Position numbers and translations under genes: made by a program | Shown here: positions 4,921-36,298 of the stretch, piece by piece | Numbering within the stretch: position 1 is the first letter of the stretch | Layout: each line of letters opens with the position of its first letter | Assembly (NCBI GenBank): GCA_022447525.1 | Contig: JAKVBA010000038.1 | Coordinates: 1-43,667, forward strand | DNA: 43,667 nt | Reading direction: 5' to 3' | From: Gammaproteobacteria bacterium | GTDB lineage: Bacteria > Pseudomonadota > Gammaproteobacteria > Arenicellales > Arenicellaceae | Notes under the pieces: model-generated | What the model was told of the DNA's origin: nothing | Databases searched by the model: none | The model's input: only the letters and a program-made list of their open reading frames with translations

Positions 4921-5463
4921 ATGACACAAAATGCCCCATTTGAACTATTGAAGAGTATGCGAGATGCGGCTGTCAGTCTTGCCGCTGAGGGCCTTACATA
5001 TTCGAGTCAGTCTGCTGGTGTAAAGAATATTGCGTACCGAGTGGGTGGCGTTAATTTTTATTGCGATGCACGGGATGTTAAAGAGGTGTCCACTTGTGAG
5101 AGCTTGATGACCATTCCGCAAACAAAAGATTGGCTCCGTGGGCTAGTTAACTCGAAAGGTGTCTTGTATTCGGTCACGGATCTTTCGCTTTTTGCGGGAT
5201 TTGGGCGTCCAATACAAACCAATAAAGGACATTTATTACTGCTTAATGACCTAGATGCACAGAGCTCATTGTTGGTTTCTCGCGTGATCGGTTTTCGTTA
5301 CTTTGAACAAGACGATAAGATTCAAGATTTAGAAGGCGTGATAGACGCTGTAGATGGTTTGGCGCCGTTCGTTGAAGAGGCTTTTCATGTTGACGGCGAA
5401 AATTGGTTTCAATTAGATGTGGTTAAGTTGCTCAACGCCGAACAATTCAGAGAGGTTCAGTAG
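4921..5463 (+). CDS. pilI: CheW-like adaptor PilI
   Basis: The product is a 180-residue CheW-fold protein. After about 35 variable residues comes the CheW domain (YRVGGVNFYCDARDVKEV, then WLRGLVNSKGVLYSVTDL and LLVSRVIGFR). CheW proteins join receptor signalling tips to the histidine kinase. The position between pilH and the receptor gene matches pilI in Pseudomonas. A GGAGAG ribosome site lies about 6 nt before the ATG. Confidence 0.9.
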   Translation: MTQNAPFELLKSMRDAAVSLAAEGLTYSSQSAGVKNIAYRVGGVNFYCDARDVKEVSTCESLMTIPQTKDWLRGLVNSKGVLYSVTDLSLFAGFGRPIQTNKGHLLLLNDLDAQSSLLVSRVIGFRYFEQDDKIQDLEGVIDAVDGLAPFVEEAFHVDGENWFQLDVVKLLNAEQFREVQ

Positions 5464-5576: not shown

Positions 5577-7742
5577 ATGGGTGATCCAAAACAAGATGTA
5601 AACGACTTAGCTGACCTAGACAGCATTTCGGACGAGTCACTAGAAGAGCTAGAGGCGTTGTACGAAGCAGAGGCTGCCGAGTACGAATCCATTGAAGAAG
5701 AGGATGACTACGAAGAAGAAGTGCCCGAAGCCACAAAGGCTGCACCTTCATCGGGCCGTGGTTGGTTAGTTTTGACGGTATTCTCATTCACGCTGGCATT
5801 GGCTTCGACACTGGTTCTAACCCCGGCTGTGACGGTACAAAAGGATCGGCTCAATAAAGCAGTGAATGCGGCCAACAAAGCAAATTTGGCTACTACAATT
5901 GCTGCTCAGGCTTTAACTCAAGGCGGTTCATTTGCACCACTAGAGAAGAATATCAACGACGTAGAGTTGGCTGTAACTCAGTTGGTGTCAGGGTCGTCTC
6001 TGCAGGCACAAATGGCAAATGCGTTGTTTGCAAATGACAGTTTTAATCAAGATGTCTTACAAAAATTTGCCACGTATAAAGCAGACAGTGCACAATTTGC
6101 GCTCAGTGATGACGACGTGACGGCTGCAAAACGTGAGGTGGCTGGCGTGGCTGACCAGCTCTCCAGGACATTGGGTGATTCGATAAACTTCGTAAAGGCC
6201 ATTGCGATTGAAGGTAGAAAGCAGTCTTCCGGAGAGAATAAAGATAAGTACTTATACCTAACCTCGGAGGCGTCTAACCTCAACGGTATTTTAGGAACGA
6301 TGATTGGCTCCATGCCTGGCTTTTTTGCAGGCGCAAACGCTAATCCGCAAGAGTCACTTGACCGGGTTAACGGTTTTATGGGCCGTTTGCAAGAGTCACT
6401 CGGTAGAATAGTAAGTAACTCAGCAGACGTTGTAGGGACGGCAGCAGAGCCATTGAGAGAACAGTACTCAAATATCGAATCGAGTCTGTCAACATTGGGT
6501 GACCGTGTTGGTCCTTTAGCTGATTCCCAAGCCAGTTTACAGAGACTTAGGGAAAGTAACCGAAGCTTGATTGAGTCGGTCGGTAGTGCAAGCAATCAAG
6601 GTGGAAACTTGCAGCTTGTCGCTAATGCATCACAGATCTTGCCGTTAATATTAGCGATTCTTGGTATTTTCGCCCTGTGGAGATTTTCACAAGCTCGTGC
6701 AAGTCAATTGTCGATTCGTGATGCCGGCCTAGAAGAAACGCTGGCTGAGCAACAAGAATCGATTTTAAAATTGCTGGATGAAATGAGTGCGCTTGCGGAT
6801 GGAGACTTGACAGTAGAAGCTGAGGTGACCGACCAGATTACGGGTGCGATTGCCGACTCCGTCAACTTCGCGGTAATTGAGATGCGTGAACTGGTATCGC
6901 AAATTAACCGTGCATCTATCGAGGTGGCCAACGAATCAGAGCTCGCGGTGTCAAACGCCCAAGAGGTATCCCAATCGAACGCGAGCCAAGCGCAACAAAT
7001 TTCCACTGCTGCGGAACAAATGCAACAGGTATCAGAAAGTATGCGCCAGATGTCAGAACAAGCGAATTCATCGTCTACGATGGCAGCTGAATCAATGCAG
7101 GTGGCAGAACGTGGTGCGCAAGCGGTACGCGATACTATCTCGGGAATGGAAGACATGCGTGAACAAATCCAAGATACATCTAAACGCATTAAGAGACTGG
7201 GTGAATCTTCTCAGCGTATTGGGGATATCGTAGCGCTGATTGATGATATTGCCGAGCAAACAAACATTCTGTCACTTAATGCAGCAATTCAAGCATCGAT
7301 GGCTGGTGAAGCCGGACGTGGTTTTGCGGTGGTTTCGGATGAGGTACAAAGTCTGGCGGAACGCTCAACAGAAGCGACAAAGAAAATTGCGGAACTGGTA
7401 TCAACAATTCAAAACGATACTAACGATGCGGTACTGTCGATGGAGAAAGCAACACAACAAGTGGTCAGTGGTACACGAGTTGCTGACTCCGCTGGGGCTG
7501 CATTGGCCGAGATTGAATCGGCTTCAAAACAATTGTCCGAGCTGGTTGAGGGTATTTCTAAAGGTTCGAATAAACACGCTGAGACGGTAACAGAAGTATC
7601 ACAACAGGTAACCCAAGTAAGCGACTCTTCAACAGAAACATCGCGCAAAGCACAAGATTCAGCTAACTCGATTGCGAAGCTATTAGAACTCGCGAAGGAT
7701 TTGGAAACCTCGGTTTCTCGATTCAAGTTACCAGCAAATTGA
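5577..7742 (+). CDS. pilJ: PilJ-type methyl-accepting chemotaxis receptor
   Basis: This 721-residue transmembrane receptor feeds the ChpA kinase. The first 60 residues are a strongly acidic cytoplasmic tail (many Glu/Asp between residues 9 and 49). TM1 spans about 62-85, and a periplasmic sensor region of about 265 residues follows. TM2 is about 355-372, then comes a HAMP-like segment (ALADGDLTVEAEV) and a long coiled-coil signalling domain. The hairpin tip (IAEQTNILSLNAAIQASMAG and then GRGFAVVSDEVQSLAER, about residues 558-600) is the PilJ version of the MCP tip. The ATG follows an AAAGG site. No methyltransferase or methylesterase gene is nearby, unlike Pseudomonas, where pilK follows pilJ. 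Confidence 0.93.
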   Translation: MGDPKQDVNDLADLDSISDESLEELEALYEAEAAEYESIEEEDDYEEEVPEATKAAPSSGRGWLVLTVFSFTLALASTLVLTPAVTVQKDRLNKAVNAANKANLATTIAAQALTQGGSFAPLEKNINDVELAVTQLVSGSSLQAQMANALFANDSFNQDVLQKFATYKADSAQFALSDDDVTAAKREVAGVADQLSRTLGDSINFVKAIAIEGRKQSSGENKDKYLYLTSEASNLNGILGTMIGSMPGFFAGANANPQESLDRVNGFMGRLQESLGRIVSNSADVVGTAAEPLREQYSNIESSLSTLGDRVGPLADSQASLQRLRESNRSLIESVGSASNQGGNLQLVANASQILPLILAILGIFALWRFSQARASQLSIRDAGLEETLAEQQESILKLLDEMSALADGDLTVEAEVTDQITGAIADSVNFAVIEMRELVSQINRASIEVANESELAVSNAQEVSQSNASQAQQISTAAEQMQQVSESMRQMSEQANSSSTMAAESMQVAERGAQAVRDTISGMEDMREQIQDTSKRIKRLGESSQRIGDIVALIDDIAEQTNILSLNAAIQASMAGEAGRGFAVVSDEVQSLAERSTEATKKIAELVSTIQNDTNDAVLSMEKATQQVVSGTRVADSAGAALAEIESASKQLSELVEGISKGSNKHAETVTEVSQQVTQVSDSSTETSRKAQDSANSIAKLLELAKDLETSVSRFKLPAN

Positions 7743-7829: not shown

Positions 7830-10800
7830 ATGGCCGTCTATTCTAATATAGATTTAGAAACATTTAAGTGGGTTCGCCGCGAGGTCGAGACGACGCTCGA
7901 TACGGCTGAGCAGGACTTACAAAAATTTGTCGTAAGTGACGATAAATCGATTCTGCTTTCATTAGGCACCCAGCTGCATCAGGTGGTTGGTTCACTTCAA
8001 ATGCTGGAAATGAAATCGGTTTCAGCCTTGATGATGGAGTCCGAGCGTTTAGTCGAGGATGTGGCTTCTCCAGAGAGTACAATTGGTAAATCAAGCTTTG
8101 TAGTTTTAGTAGATGGCTCTTTCAAAGCTCTGCAGAACACACTAAGACGCATAGAAAATGGGTTGCCTGAGAATCCCATAGACGTCGTAGAATTAATCAA
8201 TCAAATTCGTGCGCTGCGAGGCCAAGATGATATCGAGATATCGTCATTGTTCTCGCCAATGATCGAAGTGTTTCCCGAGGTAGATTCCTCCCAAGCACTT
8301 AAGGATGAAGATTACAAAAGGCGTGCCACCGCACTGCGAGCTCATTATCAATCCTTTCTACTTGCGTGGCTGAGGTCTACCGACGCCGGTGCGATTGATA
8401 AGATCGGCATGGTGTTCGATAAACTCAATAAGATGAGTGCTTTCGGTGCCGTCGCACGATTATGGTGGGTTGCTACTGCTTACACTGATTATGTTAAACA
8501 CAATGACTTGAACAACAAGTCCGTTCATAGTCGAATTTTCAGACAGTTAGACGATCGATTTAGGGAGCTAGAGAAATCTGGTGAGTCCGCTCTCGTACGA
8601 GACCCTGGTGATGAGCTCGTGAAAATCATGCTGTTCTACACCGGAGTTGGTGAAAAGCGAACAGAACGTATGGATAAGATTGTCAACGCGTTCAAGTTGC
8701 ATGAGTACTTCCCCGCATTAGATTTTCAGACTGAAGCAGTTGATTACGCTGAACTAGAGACAAAATTGTTGGCAATAAAGCAGGAGCACGACCTACCTTT
8801 GCCATTAATCCGTCAACTGGTATCAACGTATTTCGAAGAAGAGCAAAAAGACTCTAAGGGACTGGAAGAAGTCGTTTCCCACGTCAAATCAGTACATCAG
8901 AAAGTCGAAGGTAAGGATTTAGGGATTGTCGAGGATGTACTTGATGAGGTGCTGAGCGTTTTCGATGGCCTCGAAAAGGGAGTTTTGCAAAGGGACGAAG
9001 ACTCGGCCTTCCATGTTGCTTCTGCGTTGATGTTTGTCGAAGGTACATTTCTGCATCCAGCGAATTGCGATGACGACTGGCTGCAAAACGGGCAATTGAA
9101 ACATCGAGCATTGAAGGCATTAAGCAATCAAGAAGAGCTGACAGATGAAATGGATGGTTCTCATCTTACAGGCGGAGAACGCCAAGCTCTGCTTGATGTT
9201 GTTGGCAGCGAAGTAGAAGGCAGTTTAAAAGAGATCGAAGAGAGTCTAGAAAACTTCGCCAAGGATCGGACGCAACGAGCGCTACTAGCTGGTATTGACG
9301 GTAAGGTGAAGCAAATTAGAGGAGCCTTACAAGTATTGGGCGAACAAAAAGTTGGTCTACTACTGAAGATGGCTGAAGATCAGTTCACCGCAATTGAAGC
9401 TGGAGAAACTGACGCTTCGCCGAACATGGTTGAAGCCCTGGCAATAGCTGTGGGCACCATGGAAGAATACGTCAAGGGTCTACAAAATAATCGTACCGGT
9501 ATGGATGATCTGCTTGATCGCAGTATCACCGATTTAGAGGTTGCGATTGGTAAAAAGGTATCGCGTGATGACGTCGAAGACCTGCTCGATTCTGCCACCG
9601 GTTCTTTGTTTACTTGGTTGGGCAATCAGGGCGATATAGAGCTCTTCACAAGACTTAAATCAAGCCTTCGTGATCTTAATATTTTAGCAAAGAAAACCGG
9701 CTTAAACGAAGTTGAAGCGCTAGTTAGAGAGCAAGACCGATTAATCGATGTTATTGCTCAAGAGCCGGCGTTTTTAACCGACAATATTACCAGCAGCCTG
9801 CAAACCAATATGGTGAGCATTACTGAGCAGGTAATCACTTTATACGGCACCGAAGAATCCGAGTTAGAGCGGCAGTTGGATGAAATTGCTGCGCTAAAAC
9901 GTGCAGCAATTAAAAGTGATGAGGACGACAGTCAAAGATTTCATGATGATATGGATCTTGCTGAACTCGGGGAAGATCTCGCAGAAGACGCTGAGGGTCT
10001 TAGCTCTACTGAAATTGCTAAACAACATGCTGCCGCTGAACCTGAAATACCTGAGGTCGACGAAGCAATCCTAGAGGTATTTTTAGAAGAAAGTGAAGAG
10101 GTCTTAGAAGAGGCCGGTATCCAACATAAAATCTGTTCACGTGACCCGAACGATCGTGATGCGATTCGTGAGCTGCGTAGAGCCTTTCATACGCTCAAAG
10201 GGAGCTCACGAATGGTTGGTTTGAACAATGTCGGTGAGGTCGCTTGGTTCACAGAGTCTTTATTCAATTATGTCTTGGATACAGAGAAGCCACTGACTAA
10301 TGGAATCTTAAGTTTCGCAGACCAAGCCATACAAGAATTTGAAACCCAGGTAGGTAAAGGCTACAAAGAACAACACCTTATTGACACTGCTGCATGGGGA
10401 GCTAAAACCGAATTAGTCAACCTCGACGAAGACGTATCAGATGCTGAGCTAGCAAAAATAAGTGGAGAGCCTCAGCGAGAAGAAGAGCCTCAGCGAGAAG
10501 AAGAGCCTCAGCGAGATAAACAGCCTCAGCCAGAAACGGTCGATGTTGCCGATACTTTTTCCAGCGATGCGCCCGCTACAGAGGAGCTCTCATTAATTGA
10601 GGATCACGAAGAACCTCTAGAACTCGAGCCGCAGACTATAGTATTAGATGGTGATGACCACGCGATTGAGCCGCTAGAGGTCAATCTTGATGATGTCGAT
10701 TTATCATTTACAAGCTCTGATGATGAAACTGATCTTGACAACGATGAGCTCGAGTTATCGGTTGAACTTAGTGAAGAAGAAAGCTTCCCTGAATTCGCAG

Positions 10801-13800
10801 AGGACATAATCCTCTCAGCTGACGATAGCGACGCGCCAGATACATCGGTTGAAATCGATTTCGATGATGATCTAGAAGCCGCATCGTTTTCAATTATCGA
10901 AAACGATGAAATGCGCGCCATCTTTACCGAAGAGGCACGTGCTAATTTGAAAAAATTTGAGGATGAGTTAGCGCGGGGGCAAATAAAAATTGAGCCCGAG
11001 GACACAATCTCGATAGCAGTGCATACCCTTCTGGGTAACGCAAGAACTCTCGGTATAGATGAAGTTGCTGCTGCCTATGACGAGGCTGAAAAGTTACTGT
11101 TTTTAAAACAAGAAAGTGGCGGGACTCTGACTCAAACAGACCTCTTGCATCTTAACTCCTTGTTAGAAATTAGTCGTAGAACAATTGTCGATGGATCTAA
11201 TAAACCACCGTTTTATACCTTAGAGCCTGAGGAGTGGGCATCAACTACTTCGGAATTGTCTAAATGTCGGGACGCCGAGACTGATCGGATGCGTGTTGGC
11301 CACCTGCCGGACAAAGAAATAGAGCAAGAATCAGAACCAGCGTCGGTAGACTCTGATGATGGCAGTTTGCTGACTGAATTATCAGATATTGATTTGGACG
11401 TTGTCGAAGTAGATCTTACCGAACAAACCGAAGAAGTTATCGAGTTTGACCTTGATACTCATGGCGAAATTGAACTATCACTTGATGACGATGAGGTTCT
11501 AGATTTCGATATAGAGGACGCAATAGAGTTAGATACGCAAGGTTCGGAAGAGGCTGAATCTGCTTCTAAAGACGCTTCCGATCAAGTGGCTGCTGTTTTA
11601 GACGGGATCGAACCAATTGACGATCTTGTTGAAATTGACCTAAGTGATGATTTGACTCTTGAGGTAGGTGAAGATGAGCTACTTAATTTAGAGGAATCAC
11701 TCGAGTCCTTTAATCGTGAACGAGATACGAAAGATCGCAATGTTAAGCCTGATTCAAGCGAGCTAGAGACCAATGAGCAATCAACCGTTGACCTGGCTGA
11801 TATCTCAATCGAAGATCTGTCATTCCCAGAAGATGAATCCTTGGAGACCTCTTTTGATTCTGGGGAAATAAATGAGCTCGAAATTGAGGATCCAAGGCTA
11901 GTCAACGAAGAGCAAGAAAAGCAAAGTCTGATACCAGACGAGCTTACAAATTTAGTAGACGAGGACGGGCTGAATATCGAAACTGGTTTGCTGTCGCCAG
12001 CACTCGATGCTGAGCCAGAACTAGAAACAGAGCTAGAGCCAGAACCCGAACTACAGCCAGAACCCGAACTACAGCCAGAGCCCGAACTAGAGCCTGAGCC
12101 CGAACTAGAGCCAGAGCCAGAATCCTTGGACGAGGATGAGGAAGACGAGCTTGCGGCTGAATTGCGTGGCATTTTCGTGGACGAAATGCGTGGTTTGCAG
12201 CATGAGCTAGACGAGGAAGTCGCAAATCTTGCCAGCCTGGAGGATATGGCGCCCGCCATGGCTAATGTAATGCGACATCTTCATACCATCAAAGGTAGTG
12301 CTTTGATGGCAGAAGCAAACGAGCTAGGTAATTTGACTCACCAAACAGAGACGTTTTTAGAGACTAATTTCATCCGTAGCGAAGACGATTTACGTAGCGT
12401 ACGTAGTACTCTTGGACAATTTATTGATGCTCTGGATCAAGCCACTGATAATTTTAAGGCTAAAAAACCCTTCACTGCTCCGGTCAGCTTATTGAGTGCT
12501 CTTGGTGTTGACAGTGCGAATGAAGAGGTCCTCAGCGCCGAAACTGCGGCTGTAATCATTCCTGGTGCTGCGGTCGAGGAGGATACACTTAGCGCAGTAG
12601 AAATTACTGAACGTGTGGAGCAACTTAGTGCCAAGGTGGCTGATATTTCTGCTAACTGGAAGTCAGCTCGAGGCTGGGCAAAGATTCAACCTCAATACGA
12701 AGAGCAATTGTCTAATTACATCGATCTAGCGAACGAGGCTGACATTCATAATGATAGTCTTAGCCAGATCGCATTAGCCACGCAAGGTTATGTGGTCAGC
12801 TTGAAGATGAGTAAGGTTGCTCAATTCAAAGCAAGCAAACCTATCATCGAAGAAGCTTTTGATGTGATCGCCGCTGGTCTGAATAGCGTAGCGACAGGTA
12901 ATCCATTAGATGTTCCTGCAGAGCTCGTTTCGGCGTTGATTGGTTCAGCTGAGACGCAATCAGAAGAGGCGGATAAAACGGGTGCTCAAGCGTCACCTAA
13001 ACAAGCCAGGGTGTTGTCTAAAGCTAAAAAAGTAGAGGCTGGAATTTTTGTGCCTGGTTCTACTGAACTTAGCGAATCGGAACAAAAAGACGTAGACAGA
13101 CAGGAGAAGGCTGCCAAAGACCGCGCTGCGGCCTTGAGAATCAACACCAATACTCTCGACAGTCTGACCAACTTCGTTGGTGACGTGAGTATGAACCGGT
13201 CGCAAATGCGAGAAGACGTTGTAACGATTAAGACTGTTATTGACGATCTTTACGACAATGTGCAGCGCTTCAATAGTCAATTGCGTGAGTTGGAGATTGA
13301 GGCTGACTCGAAAATTACTTCACGTACCAATGAGTCTTTCAAACTCGATAGCGGCGAGTTTGATCCGCTGGAAATGGATCGCTACACCAAGCTTCAGCAA
13401 CTTTCTCGTGGTTTGGCAGAGAACTTGGACGAATTGGGTACGATTCAAAACACCCTGAGTGGTTTTGTGTACAAAGCTGAAACCAATCTGCAGAAGCAAG
13501 AACGATTGAATCGTGAATTGCAAGACGAAATTATGCAGGTTCGCTTGGTTACCTTCGGTGGTGTCGCTCCGCAGTTACGCCAAGTCGTGCGAAGAACAGC
13601 CAGAGAGTTGAGTAAAGAGGTAGAACTTGAGGTTGTAGGTGCAGAGGTAAAGCTGGATAAATCCATTCTAGATGGTGTGGTTCCAGCACTGGAACACATG
13701 CTGAGAAATGCCGTTGACCATGGTGTCGAGAGCGCCGCTGATCGCAAAAAAGCCGGTAAAAATCAGATCGGCAAGGTAACGGTTGAGTGTCGTCAGGTGG

Positions 13801-14948
13801 CAAGGGAGATTATCATATCCGTTCGTGATGATGGTAAGGGACTCGACCTCGATAAAATTCGCAAGAAGGCAATTGAAGATAACCTACTGTCTGAAGATCA
13901 ACCGCTAAATCCCGAAGACATGATGATGTACATCTCGCAGAGTGGCTTCAGTACGGCGCAAAAACTGACTCAGATTTCCGGACGAGGTGTTGGTATGGAC
14001 GTAGTTCAGGCAACCATCCGCAGAATGTCAGGCAGTATTTCCTACGACTTAGAAAACGAAAACACAGGTTCACACTTCATTATACGTTTACCTATTTCGC
14101 TAGCGGTATCAAGCGCGATGTTTGTTAACTCAGGTGAAGGTTCATTTGCTATCCCTGCCCGCACCATTGAGCGAGTTGTGAACATCGATGCTGAAGAATT
14201 GGTAAAACGTTTAAAAGCAGATAAACCAACGATTGAGACTGGCGATCAAGTTTATACATTGATTGATTTGGCTGACTATCTTGGTTACGAGTCTAAGTTA
14301 CCCATATTGAGTGGCAAGGTTTCGGTAGTGCTCGTTAACGCGGGCCTACAGAACATCGCCGTGATAGTCGAGGAGCTATTGGATACCCAAGAAATTGTGG
14401 TTAAAAACCTCGGCGAGCACCTTGGTCGAATTCCAATTTTCGCTGGCGCAACGGTTCGAGCCGATGGTTCGGTTGTTTTATTGCTTGATTTAGTTGGCAT
14501 CTCATACTACGAGTCGATCGTAAGTGTGTCTGAGCAAAATGTGAATGTAACTCATGCTATTCCAACCGTGATGGTTGTTGATGATTCACTCACAGTACGC
14601 AAGTCGGCCGAGCGAGATATAACCGGCTTGGGTATCAATTCTGTGCTAGCAAAAGATGGATTGGACGCTCAGATACAATTACGTCAAGAAGCCCCAGACA
14701 TGATCCTACTCGATATAGAGATGCCTCGTATGGATGGTTTCGAATTGCTGGAGTGGGTTAAATCTGAGGATAGCCTCAAGCATATCCCTGTGATAATGAT
14801 TTCGTCTCGAGCGACGGAGAAGTACGTAGACAAAGCGACTGCTCTTGGGTGTACGGCTTTCTTAGGTAAGCCTTATCTTATTGATAGCCTGGTGGCTCTG
14901 TTTAATGAGCACCTCAAGCTAGATGCACCAATTGAATTAGGTCAGTAA
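7830..14948 (+). CDS. chpA: ChpA/PilL hybrid chemotaxis histidine kinase
   Basis: This giant CheA-type kinase (2372 residues) controls type IV pili. Phosphotransfer domains come first. LHQVVGS (His50) is in an N-terminal FimL-like segment. A degenerate site has Lys494 at the histidine position (VKQIRGALQ). Then come HTLKGSS (His787), HTLLGNA (His1065) and HTIKGSA (His1485). The ATPase has its N-box at Asn1960, G1 DDGKG at 2000-2004 and G2 GRGVGMD at 2051-2057. A CheW-like domain follows. The C-terminal receiver has Asp2251/2252, phosphoacceptor Asp2295 and Lys2347. Between the phosphotransfer domains run long Asp/Glu-rich linkers, two of them built of 18-bp tandem repeats. Length is close to Pseudomonas ChpA. 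Only a weak ribosome site (GAG) precedes the ATG. Confidence 0.96.
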   Translation: MAVYSNIDLETFKWVRREVETTLDTAEQDLQKFVVSDDKSILLSLGTQLHQVVGSLQMLEMKSVSALMMESERLVEDVASPESTIGKSSFVVLVDGSFKALQNTLRRIENGLPENPIDVVELINQIRALRGQDDIEISSLFSPMIEVFPEVDSSQALKDEDYKRRATALRAHYQSFLLAWLRSTDAGAIDKIGMVFDKLNKMSAFGAVARLWWVATAYTDYVKHNDLNNKSVHSRIFRQLDDRFRELEKSGESALVRDPGDELVKIMLFYTGVGEKRTERMDKIVNAFKLHEYFPALDFQTEAVDYAELETKLLAIKQEHDLPLPLIRQLVSTYFEEEQKDSKGLEEVVSHVKSVHQKVEGKDLGIVEDVLDEVLSVFDGLEKGVLQRDEDSAFHVASALMFVEGTFLHPANCDDDWLQNGQLKHRALKALSNQEELTDEMDGSHLTGGERQALLDVVGSEVEGSLKEIEESLENFAKDRTQRALLAGIDGKVKQIRGALQVLGEQKVGLLLKMAEDQFTAIEAGETDASPNMVEALAIAVGTMEEYVKGLQNNRTGMDDLLDRSITDLEVAIGKKVSRDDVEDLLDSATGSLFTWLGNQGDIELFTRLKSSLRDLNILAKKTGLNEVEALVREQDRLIDVIAQEPAFLTDNITSSLQTNMVSITEQVITLYGTEESELERQLDEIAALKRAAIKSDEDDSQRFHDDMDLAELGEDLAEDAEGLSSTEIAKQHAAAEPEIPEVDEAILEVFLEESEEVLEEAGIQHKICSRDPNDRDAIRELRRAFHTLKGSSRMVGLNNVGEVAWFTESLFNYVLDTEKPLTNGILSFADQAIQEFETQVGKGYKEQHLIDTAAWGAKTELVNLDEDVSDAELAKISGEPQREEEPQREEEPQRDKQPQPETVDVADTFSSDAPATEELSLIEDHEEPLELEPQTIVLDGDDHAIEPLEVNLDDVDLSFTSSDDETDLDNDELELSVELSEEESFPEFAEDIILSADDSDAPDTSVEIDFDDDLEAASFSIIENDEMRAIFTEEARANLKKFEDELARGQIKIEPEDTISIAVHTLLGNARTLGIDEVAAAYDEAEKLLFLKQESGGTLTQTDLLHLNSLLEISRRTIVDGSNKPPFYTLEPEEWASTTSELSKCRDAETDRMRVGHLPDKEIEQESEPASVDSDDGSLLTELSDIDLDVVEVDLTEQTEEVIEFDLDTHGEIELSLDDDEVLDFDIEDAIELDTQGSEEAESASKDASDQVAAVLDGIEPIDDLVEIDLSDDLTLEVGEDELLNLEESLESFNRERDTKDRNVKPDSSELETNEQSTVDLADISIEDLSFPEDESLETSFDSGEINELEIEDPRLVNEEQEKQSLIPDELTNLVDEDGLNIETGLLSPALDAEPELETELEPEPELQPEPELQPEPELEPEPELEPEPESLDEDEEDELAAELRGIFVDEMRGLQHELDEEVANLASLEDMAPAMANVMRHLHTIKGSALMAEANELGNLTHQTETFLETNFIRSEDDLRSVRSTLGQFIDALDQATDNFKAKKPFTAPVSLLSALGVDSANEEVLSAETAAVIIPGAAVEEDTLSAVEITERVEQLSAKVADISANWKSARGWAKIQPQYEEQLSNYIDLANEADIHNDSLSQIALATQGYVVSLKMSKVAQFKASKPIIEEAFDVIAAGLNSVATGNPLDVPAELVSALIGSAETQSEEADKTGAQASPKQARVLSKAKKVEAGIFVPGSTELSESEQKDVDRQEKAAKDRAAALRINTNTLDSLTNFVGDVSMNRSQMREDVVTIKTVIDDLYDNVQRFNSQLRELEIEADSKITSRTNESFKLDSGEFDPLEMDRYTKLQQLSRGLAENLDELGTIQNTLSGFVYKAETNLQKQERLNRELQDEIMQVRLVTFGGVAPQLRQVVRRTARELSKEVELEVVGAEVKLDKSILDGVVPALEHMLRNAVDHGVESAADRKKAGKNQIGKVTVECRQVAREIIISVRDDGKGLDLDKIRKKAIEDNLLSEDQPLNPEDMMMYISQSGFSTAQKLTQISGRGVGMDVVQATIRRMSGSISYDLENENTGSHFIIRLPISLAVSSAMFVNSGEGSFAIPARTIERVVNIDAEELVKRLKADKPTIETGDQVYTLIDLADYLGYESKLPILSGKVSVVLVNAGLQNIAVIVEELLDTQEIVVKNLGEHLGRIPIFAGATVRADGSVVLLLDLVGISYYESIVSVSEQNVNVTHAIPTVMVVDDSLTVRKSAERDITGLGINSVLAKDGLDAQIQLRQEAPDMILLDIEMPRMDGFELLEWVKSEDSLKHIPVIMISSRATEKYVDKATALGCTAFLGKPYLIDSLVALFNEHLKLDAPIELGQ
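10467..10520 (+). repeat. 18-bp tandem repeat inside chpA (EPQREE units)
   Basis: The unit gagcctcagcgagaagaa occurs twice perfectly (10467-10484 and 10485-10502) and a third time with changed last bases (10503-10520). A partial unit follows. It stays in frame and encodes EPQREE repeats in the charged linker after the His787 phosphotransfer domain. Confidence 0.9.
12036..12125 (+). repeat. Five 18-bp tandem repeats inside chpA (EPEPEL/QPEPEL units)
   Basis: Five consecutive 18-bp units of the form gagccagaacccgaacta, with a few substitutions, encode alternating Glu-Pro hexapeptides (EPEPEL, QPEPEL). They form an extended Pro/Glu linker just before the His1485 phosphotransfer domain. The near-identity at DNA level suggests copy number can change by slippage without breaking the frame. 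Confidence 0.92.
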
Positions 14949-35239: not shown

Positions 35240-36298
35240 ATGATTGGTATCTTCGGTGGCACGTTTGATCCGGTGCATCTTGGCCACCGCAAAGCGATCG
35301 ATCAACTTTGTGATGAGGTTACATTTGACAAGGTTTACTGGGTACTGAGCGCGAGGCCGCCGCACAAAAATCAGGTGACGGCTGACATTTCTCACCGATT
35401 TGAAATGTTGAAACTCGAGTTGAGCGATAACTCACTTTATCAGGCCGACGATACGGAAATTAAGCGTGCAACCAAGTCTTATACGATAGATACAGTTGAA
35501 GCCTTCAAGCACCGCTTTCCAGATCAAGGTCTCGTTGTCATTATTGGTGGTGATAGCTTGCAGAACTTATATTCTTGGCGTCAATATAAGAAATTAATGG
35601 CGTCAGTGAACTGGATAGTGTTGAATCGACCCGGTTATTCGACGAAAGTGCCTAGCGATTTGCGATCGCGTTTGGTAGAGTCGCCCGCCGACTTAGAAAA
35701 ACACGCTAATGGTGCTATCTGGCTGTATGAAGGCAGTGAGTTTGCGATCTCTTCAACTCAGTTGCGTAAGGAATTGAACTGTGGATCTGAGACACCACTG
35801 AGTCATATGTATCTGTCGGCAAGAGTGAAAGACTATATAAGAGAAAACAGGCTTTATCAGTCTGTGGTCGGTAGCACCGATGAACAAACAAACCTGTATA
35901 CTAGAGCCGAACGCTCTGCAGTGGATGAATCTATGAATTCTGATCAAATTAAAAACCAAGTTGTTGAAGCTCTTGAAAACGTCAAAGGCCAAGACATTAA
36001 AGTATTGGACATAGCGGAAATATCCGATTTTGCTGATTTTATGATCGTGGTTAGTGGCACATCAGATACTCATGTTAAAGCTTTAGCTCGCTCAGCGTCA
36101 GATCAATTGAGATCACAGGGAGTAAAACCTTTGAATGAAGATGGATCTGATGTTGGCGAATGGGTGTTGGTCGATTTTGGTGACGTTGTTCTTCACGTTA
36201 TGAGGCCCGAAGTTCGTGTTTACTATGATCTCGAGAAATTATGGGATGAGGACGTGCGTAAAATGGTTGAGCAACACCGAGAAGAGAGAGATCAGTAA
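35240..36298 (+). CDS. nadD-rsfS: Fused nicotinate-nucleotide adenylyltransferase (NadD) and ribosome silencing factor (RsfS)
   Basis: One 352-residue frame joins two proteins that are usually separate neighbours. Residues 1-210 are NadD, which makes nicotinate adenine dinucleotide in NAD synthesis: GGTFDPVHLGH (6-16), IIGGDSLQNLYSWRQ (101-115) and FAISSTQLRKEL (168-179). Residues about 232-352 are RsfS, which binds ribosomal protein L14 and blocks subunit joining in starvation: ISDFADFMIVVSGTSDTHVKAL, then GEWVLVDFGDVVLHVM. A hydrophilic linker of about 20 residues lies between. Met232 (ATG at 35933) sits exactly where a free RsfS would begin, with only a weak upstream GTGGATG as ribosome site. 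So either a true fusion or an internal start is possible. Confidence 0.93.
   Translation: MIGIFGGTFDPVHLGHRKAIDQLCDEVTFDKVYWVLSARPPHKNQVTADISHRFEMLKLELSDNSLYQADDTEIKRATKSYTIDTVEAFKHRFPDQGLVVIIGGDSLQNLYSWRQYKKLMASVNWIVLNRPGYSTKVPSDLRSRLVESPADLEKHANGAIWLYEGSEFAISSTQLRKELNCGSETPLSHMYLSARVKDYIRENRLYQSVVGSTDEQTNLYTRAERSAVDESMNSDQIKNQVVEALENVKGQDIKVLDIAEISDFADFMIVVSGTSDTHVKALARSASDQLRSQGVKPLNEDGSDVGEWVLVDFGDVVLHVMRPEVRVYYDLEKLWDEDVRKMVEQHREERDQ

Follow-up and report, generated by a model that had tools for sequence, protein, structure and literature searches.

The ribosome silencing factor RsfS is the same protein as YbeB, and Wolinella belongs to the phylum Campylobacterota. The closest described counterpart of the gene studied here is the NadD-YbeB fusion of Wolinella succinogenes, which, according to a 2011 paper (PMC3223725), carries the same two domains in the same named order on one chain, although the organism is distant and a shared ancestry of the two fusions would be hypothetical. 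The same paper reports that neither E. coli YbeB nor the Wolinella fusion showed detectable pyrophosphatase or NAD cleavage activity. Separate nadD and rsfS (ybeB) neighbours provide another comparison, as they comprise the same genes in the same order, but our locus lacks the stop and restart between them. NadD likewise forms the N-terminal half of the long NadD proteins of NF005519 / PRK07152. The protein encoded at our locus matches positions 3-185 of 361 of this model and scores 133.7 against a cut-off of 315, and its partner domain is RsfS, whereas the second half of the NF005519 / PRK07152 proteins is presumably a YqeK-like domain. We found no publication on an Arenicella NadD-RsfS fusion in open-access PubMed Central, using queries without the genus name. 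NadD-YbeB fusions are already in print, and the lineage-wide Arenicella case belongs to a known kind; what we add to the printed record is the spread of the fusion through Arenicella and its presence in more families.

A single-copy gene with a NadD and an RsfS domain

We analysed a stretch of 43,667 nucleotides from a marine member of the genus Arenicella, hereafter the window, which carries the fused gene on its forward strand (Table 1). An earlier note on this DNA had claimed an in-frame NadD-RsfS fusion of 352 codons with a linker of about 20 residues and a methionine, Met232, at the domain border. All three points were borne out. The frame starts with an ATG, runs through 352 codons without an internal stop and ends with a stop codon, and both families were recognized above their cut-offs in NCBIfam (TIGR00482 NadD, 158.5 bits against 112.45; TIGR00090 RsfS, 114.1 bits against 56.9). 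Pfam placed CTP_transf_like at residues 4-177 (1.6e-23) and RsfS at residues 240-335 (PF02410, 6.6e-31; 106.9 bits against a cut-off of 21.6). Some narrower NadD models scored under their own cut-offs, for example NF000839 with 171.4 against 187. The NadD half matched the structure chain 1k4k (E=1.7e-30), which we take to be an E. coli-type NadD chain, and the RsfS half matched the RsfS chain 9q40 (E=1.4e-27). The linker measures 23 residues from one aligned domain end to the other, or 25 when counted after the LY motif at the end of NadD, and the Met232 codon was found where the border had been placed.

Table 1. Features of the fused nadD-rsfS locus in the window
Feature	Position	Strand	Remarks
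nadD-rsfS fused gene	35240..36298	+	one open frame, 352 aa; ATG at 35240, stop codon ends at 36298
NadD domain, nicotinate mononucleotide adenylyltransferase	35240..35863	+	residues 1-208; TIGR00482 match 4-206
Linker	35864..35932	+	residues 209-231
RsfS domain, ribosome silencing factor	35933..36295	+	residues 232-352; PF02410, TIGR00090
Met232 codon	35933..35935	+	lines up with the position where RsfS begins in separate relatives; candidate internal start

The fused gene lies between an upstream gene that reads, on our assumption, as proA and a downstream gene that reads as rlmH. In a profile search of the genome, RsfS gave a single match and NadD a single match above the cut-off; a second NadD-profile match on another contig (C147) reached 29.7 bits against the cut-off of 112.45. 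Each domain of the fused gene is therefore the only clear copy in the genome. Taken together with its occurrence in related genomes, described below, this is a real, inherited, single-copy two-domain gene.

Spread of the fusion and history of the junction

We read the junctions of 18 Arenicella genomes frame by frame, of which 17 were readable. Fifteen carried the fused gene and two (G004 and G009) carried separate genes, and in the remaining genome (G010) a contig end cuts the junction. The earlier note had proposed such a comparison of related genomes; 15 of the 17 readable genus members have no stop between the domains. In G004 the stop codon of nadD overlaps the start codon of rsfS (TTATGA), and in G009 the two genes are separate and in frame, with three stops between them. 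Beyond the genus, in a family sample of 21 genomes, G018 was fused and G019 and G020 were separate. In the separate relatives that we read, nadD and rsfS lie side by side in the same order. The earlier note had regarded separate genes in close relatives as speaking against the fusion; such genes do occur, in two of the 17 readable genus members and in G019 and G020 of the family, and the frame itself was not shown to be erroneous by them. What they show is that family members can do without the fusion, as G004, G009, G019 and G020 do.

We extended the survey to larger samples. The counts there are lower limits, since they rest on the matches listed and mostly on those that cover both domains. 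In the order sample (109 genomes) at least 20 genomes were fused, comprising the 16 of the family together with G025, G035, G061 and G031. The class sample (370 genomes, of which 366 are not from Arenicella) yielded at least one further fusion (G458), and the phylum sample (397 genomes) at least four outside the class (G794, G586, G496 and G591), in each of which one match without a stop extends across the two domains, as direct reading confirmed. Altogether, directly read fusions amount to 25 genes from eight families, and second copies of two genomes (L031 of G013 and L032 of G006) were counted once. Two apparent cases illustrate the need for direct reading. At an Azospirillaceae locus (L033) the match covers both domains, but nadD and rsfS are two genes in different frames there, and open-frame length was rejected as a test of fusion, since G023 (L030) gives 386 aa for both halves despite a TAG between them. 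What had looked like a single odd frame is thus a genus-wide gene fusion that is also present in other families.

The junctions differ in length. In 11 of the 15 fused genus genes exactly four residues separate the final LY of NadD from the RsfS Met, and one genus member has PY instead of LY at the NadD end. Longer junctions were found in G002 and G013 (11 residues each), in G007 (20) and in the window (25), and across 21 measured fusions the linker ranges from 4 to 65 residues. The genus tree needs five spacing changes, including those to both separate genes; the spacing of G004, for which both 7 nt and, from its letters, 5 nt were obtained, does not affect this count. In-frame changes of the linker were not accepted as a sign of selection, since only fused genes can enter such a count and the argument is nearly circular.

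A tree of 31 genes was built from the two aligned domains. It needs six changes between the fused and the separate state, at least three of which are forced by well-supported branches, gains and losses being counted together. G004 is nested within the genus among fused relatives and is probably a re-split of the fusion. G009 is basal in the genus with weak support (72/77), and its separate genes may be ancestral or a reversion. The simplest reading of the genus would be a single old fusion with a four-residue junction, followed by in-frame expansions. The genus fusion and that of G018 may share one origin, and the tree is compatible with either view.

NadD motifs and uL14 contacts in the fused protein and its relatives

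Most of the family-defining residues that we tested are kept. The NadD half carries GGTFDPVHLGH (residues 6-16) and SSTxxR (residues 171-176, in ISSTQLR), and we take GGTFDPxHxGH and SSTxxR to be the nucleotidyltransferase motifs of NadD. F5-P11, H13, G15, H16, S171 and R176 are invariant in 14 fused proteins, and S172 is kept at 90% or more. For the RsfS half, a study of S. aureus RsfS names Glu70, Asp81 and Tyr98 as contacts to uL14 (PMC7125091). The equivalents of Asp81 and Tyr98 (Asp312 and Tyr329 in the window) are kept in 31 of 31 aligned rows. At the position of Glu70 (Asp301 in the window, 36140-36142), 16 of the 17 genus rows have Asp and the remaining one, G009, has Asn, while each of the 14 rows from other genera has Glu. 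Glu to Asp is a conservative change; alanine at the matching Glu of the M. tuberculosis protein reduces 50S affinity, according to the same paper (PMC7125091). The substitution may therefore alter RsfS binding, and it speaks against an RsfS that is simply unchanged. The change is independent of the fusion, because G004, with its separate genes, has it too.

On the ribosomal side, uL14 was read in seven of the nine genomes searched, numbered from its first residue with the S. aureus numbering assumed to fit, and the other two of the nine gave no uL14 match. All seven sequences have Arg97 and Arg107, and six of them have Lys113, which is replaced by Arg in G023, a genome outside the genus. We also observed that uL14 residues 109-110 are Asp-Asn in four genus members (L075-L078) and Glu-Arg or Glu-Lys in three relatives (L079-L081). 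These residues lie near the RsfS contacts in the sequence and are possibly co-varying with them.

RsfS from both E. coli and S. aureus has been prepared with an N-terminal His6 tag, the S. aureus protein in a 50S complex (PMC3400551 and PMC7125091), indicating that the RsfS N-terminus tolerates at least a short extension. In the predicted model of the fused protein the linker is the least confident part (block means of 32 and 30; pLDDT below 50 at residues 208-232), and the RsfS half is also low. These predictions used three aligned sequences only and reached a mean pLDDT of 64.9 and 69.7, which is too weak to judge domain docking.

Competing explanations for the fused gene

The window belongs to a draft assembly of 222 contigs, in which a sequencing or assembly error could hide a stop. 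However, the fusion occurs at the same place in 14 other genus assemblies, and we regard such an error as practically ruled out, because 15 of the 17 readable Arenicella members are fused. Whether the locus yields one product or two is a different matter. The earlier note had suggested that initiation at Met232 may give free RsfS in addition to the fusion; RsfS could then exceed NadD. In favour of this suggestion, the border Met is invariant in 17 of 17 genus rows, where columns 2-6 changed 2-4 times each, and the SD-like energy at Met232 of the window is -3.1 kcal/mol. However, 64 of the 121 RsfS columns (53%) are equally unchanged, and we therefore rejected the invariance of Met232 as proof of an internal start. 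An energy of -3 kcal/mol or lower was found at Met232 in just 2 of the 15 fused and in neither of the two separate genus genes. By comparison, this level is reached in the window by 34% of the 658 internal ATGs, whatever their frame, and at the first start of 13 of the 25 ORFs that are 150 aa or longer (this baseline is the window only, with energies above 0 set to 0). Conversely, the absence of an SD-like site was rejected as proof against an internal start and is weak evidence against initiation, because the separate rsfS genes of G004 and G009 also start without one (2.8 and -0.8), and the genus may need none. Outside the genus, the Met is missing at the aligned position in five of six gammaproteobacterial fusions, although alternative start codons lie close by in several of them. 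Codons 190-300 of the fused frame in G591 include neither ATG nor GTG nor TTG, and in that genome a free RsfS could therefore arise only from a non-standard start. Internal initiation at Met232 is possible but unproven, and we consider a locus with two products unlikely.

A functional reading goes further and holds that NAD status is tied to ribosome idling through the fusion, with the substrate state of NadD altering the access of RsfS to uL14. The frequent adjacency of nadD and ybeB (PMC5462765), the presence of fusions in eight families and the four-residue junction of most fused genus members, which brings the domains near enough to touch, are consistent with this idea. The range of linker lengths, however, speaks against a fixed contact, and the Wolinella fusion, which showed neither NAD cleavage nor pyrophosphatase activity, also counts against coupling, although that assay addressed activity and not regulation (PMC3223725). 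No link between NAD status and ribosome idling is among the results of this sequence analysis, and we consider the coupling very improbable. A more specific version would have the short Arenicella junction put NadD on the 50S intersubunit face, where NaMN/ATP occupancy would set the strength of RsfS silencing, and would take the Glu-to-Asp change together with Asp-Asn at uL14 109-110 as a retuned interface; we give this version slightly less credence still. We instead favour, with a probability of about 0.72, a fusion near the genus ancestor that gives one two-domain protein with two ordinary activities. The neighbouring operon genes nadD and rsfS would have been fused in or near the Arenicella ancestor through loss of the intervening stop, and a single two-domain protein would be made, fixing the two halves at a 1:1 ratio. 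Its NadD half would perform ordinary NaMN adenylylation, and the tethered RsfS half would bind uL14 on the large subunit in the ordinary way. The open frame, the single copies, the wide occurrence in the genus and most of the tested family-defining residues are observed directly; from these we infer that the chain would be made and stay intact, that both activities would persist and that the origin would be single and old. Rather than an NAD sensor, the fused gene is probably a near-neutral arrangement or a simple means of co-expression. If the coupling were true, NAD synthesis would be linked directly to ribosome hibernation. The fused genomes and their separate relatives form natural test pairs for cooperation between NadD and RsfS.

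Elsewhere in the window, positions 7830-14948 encode a protein of 2372 residues that combines Hpt, ATPase, CheW and receiver domains; genes for an MCP (5577-7742) and for CheW (4921-5463) lie beside it.
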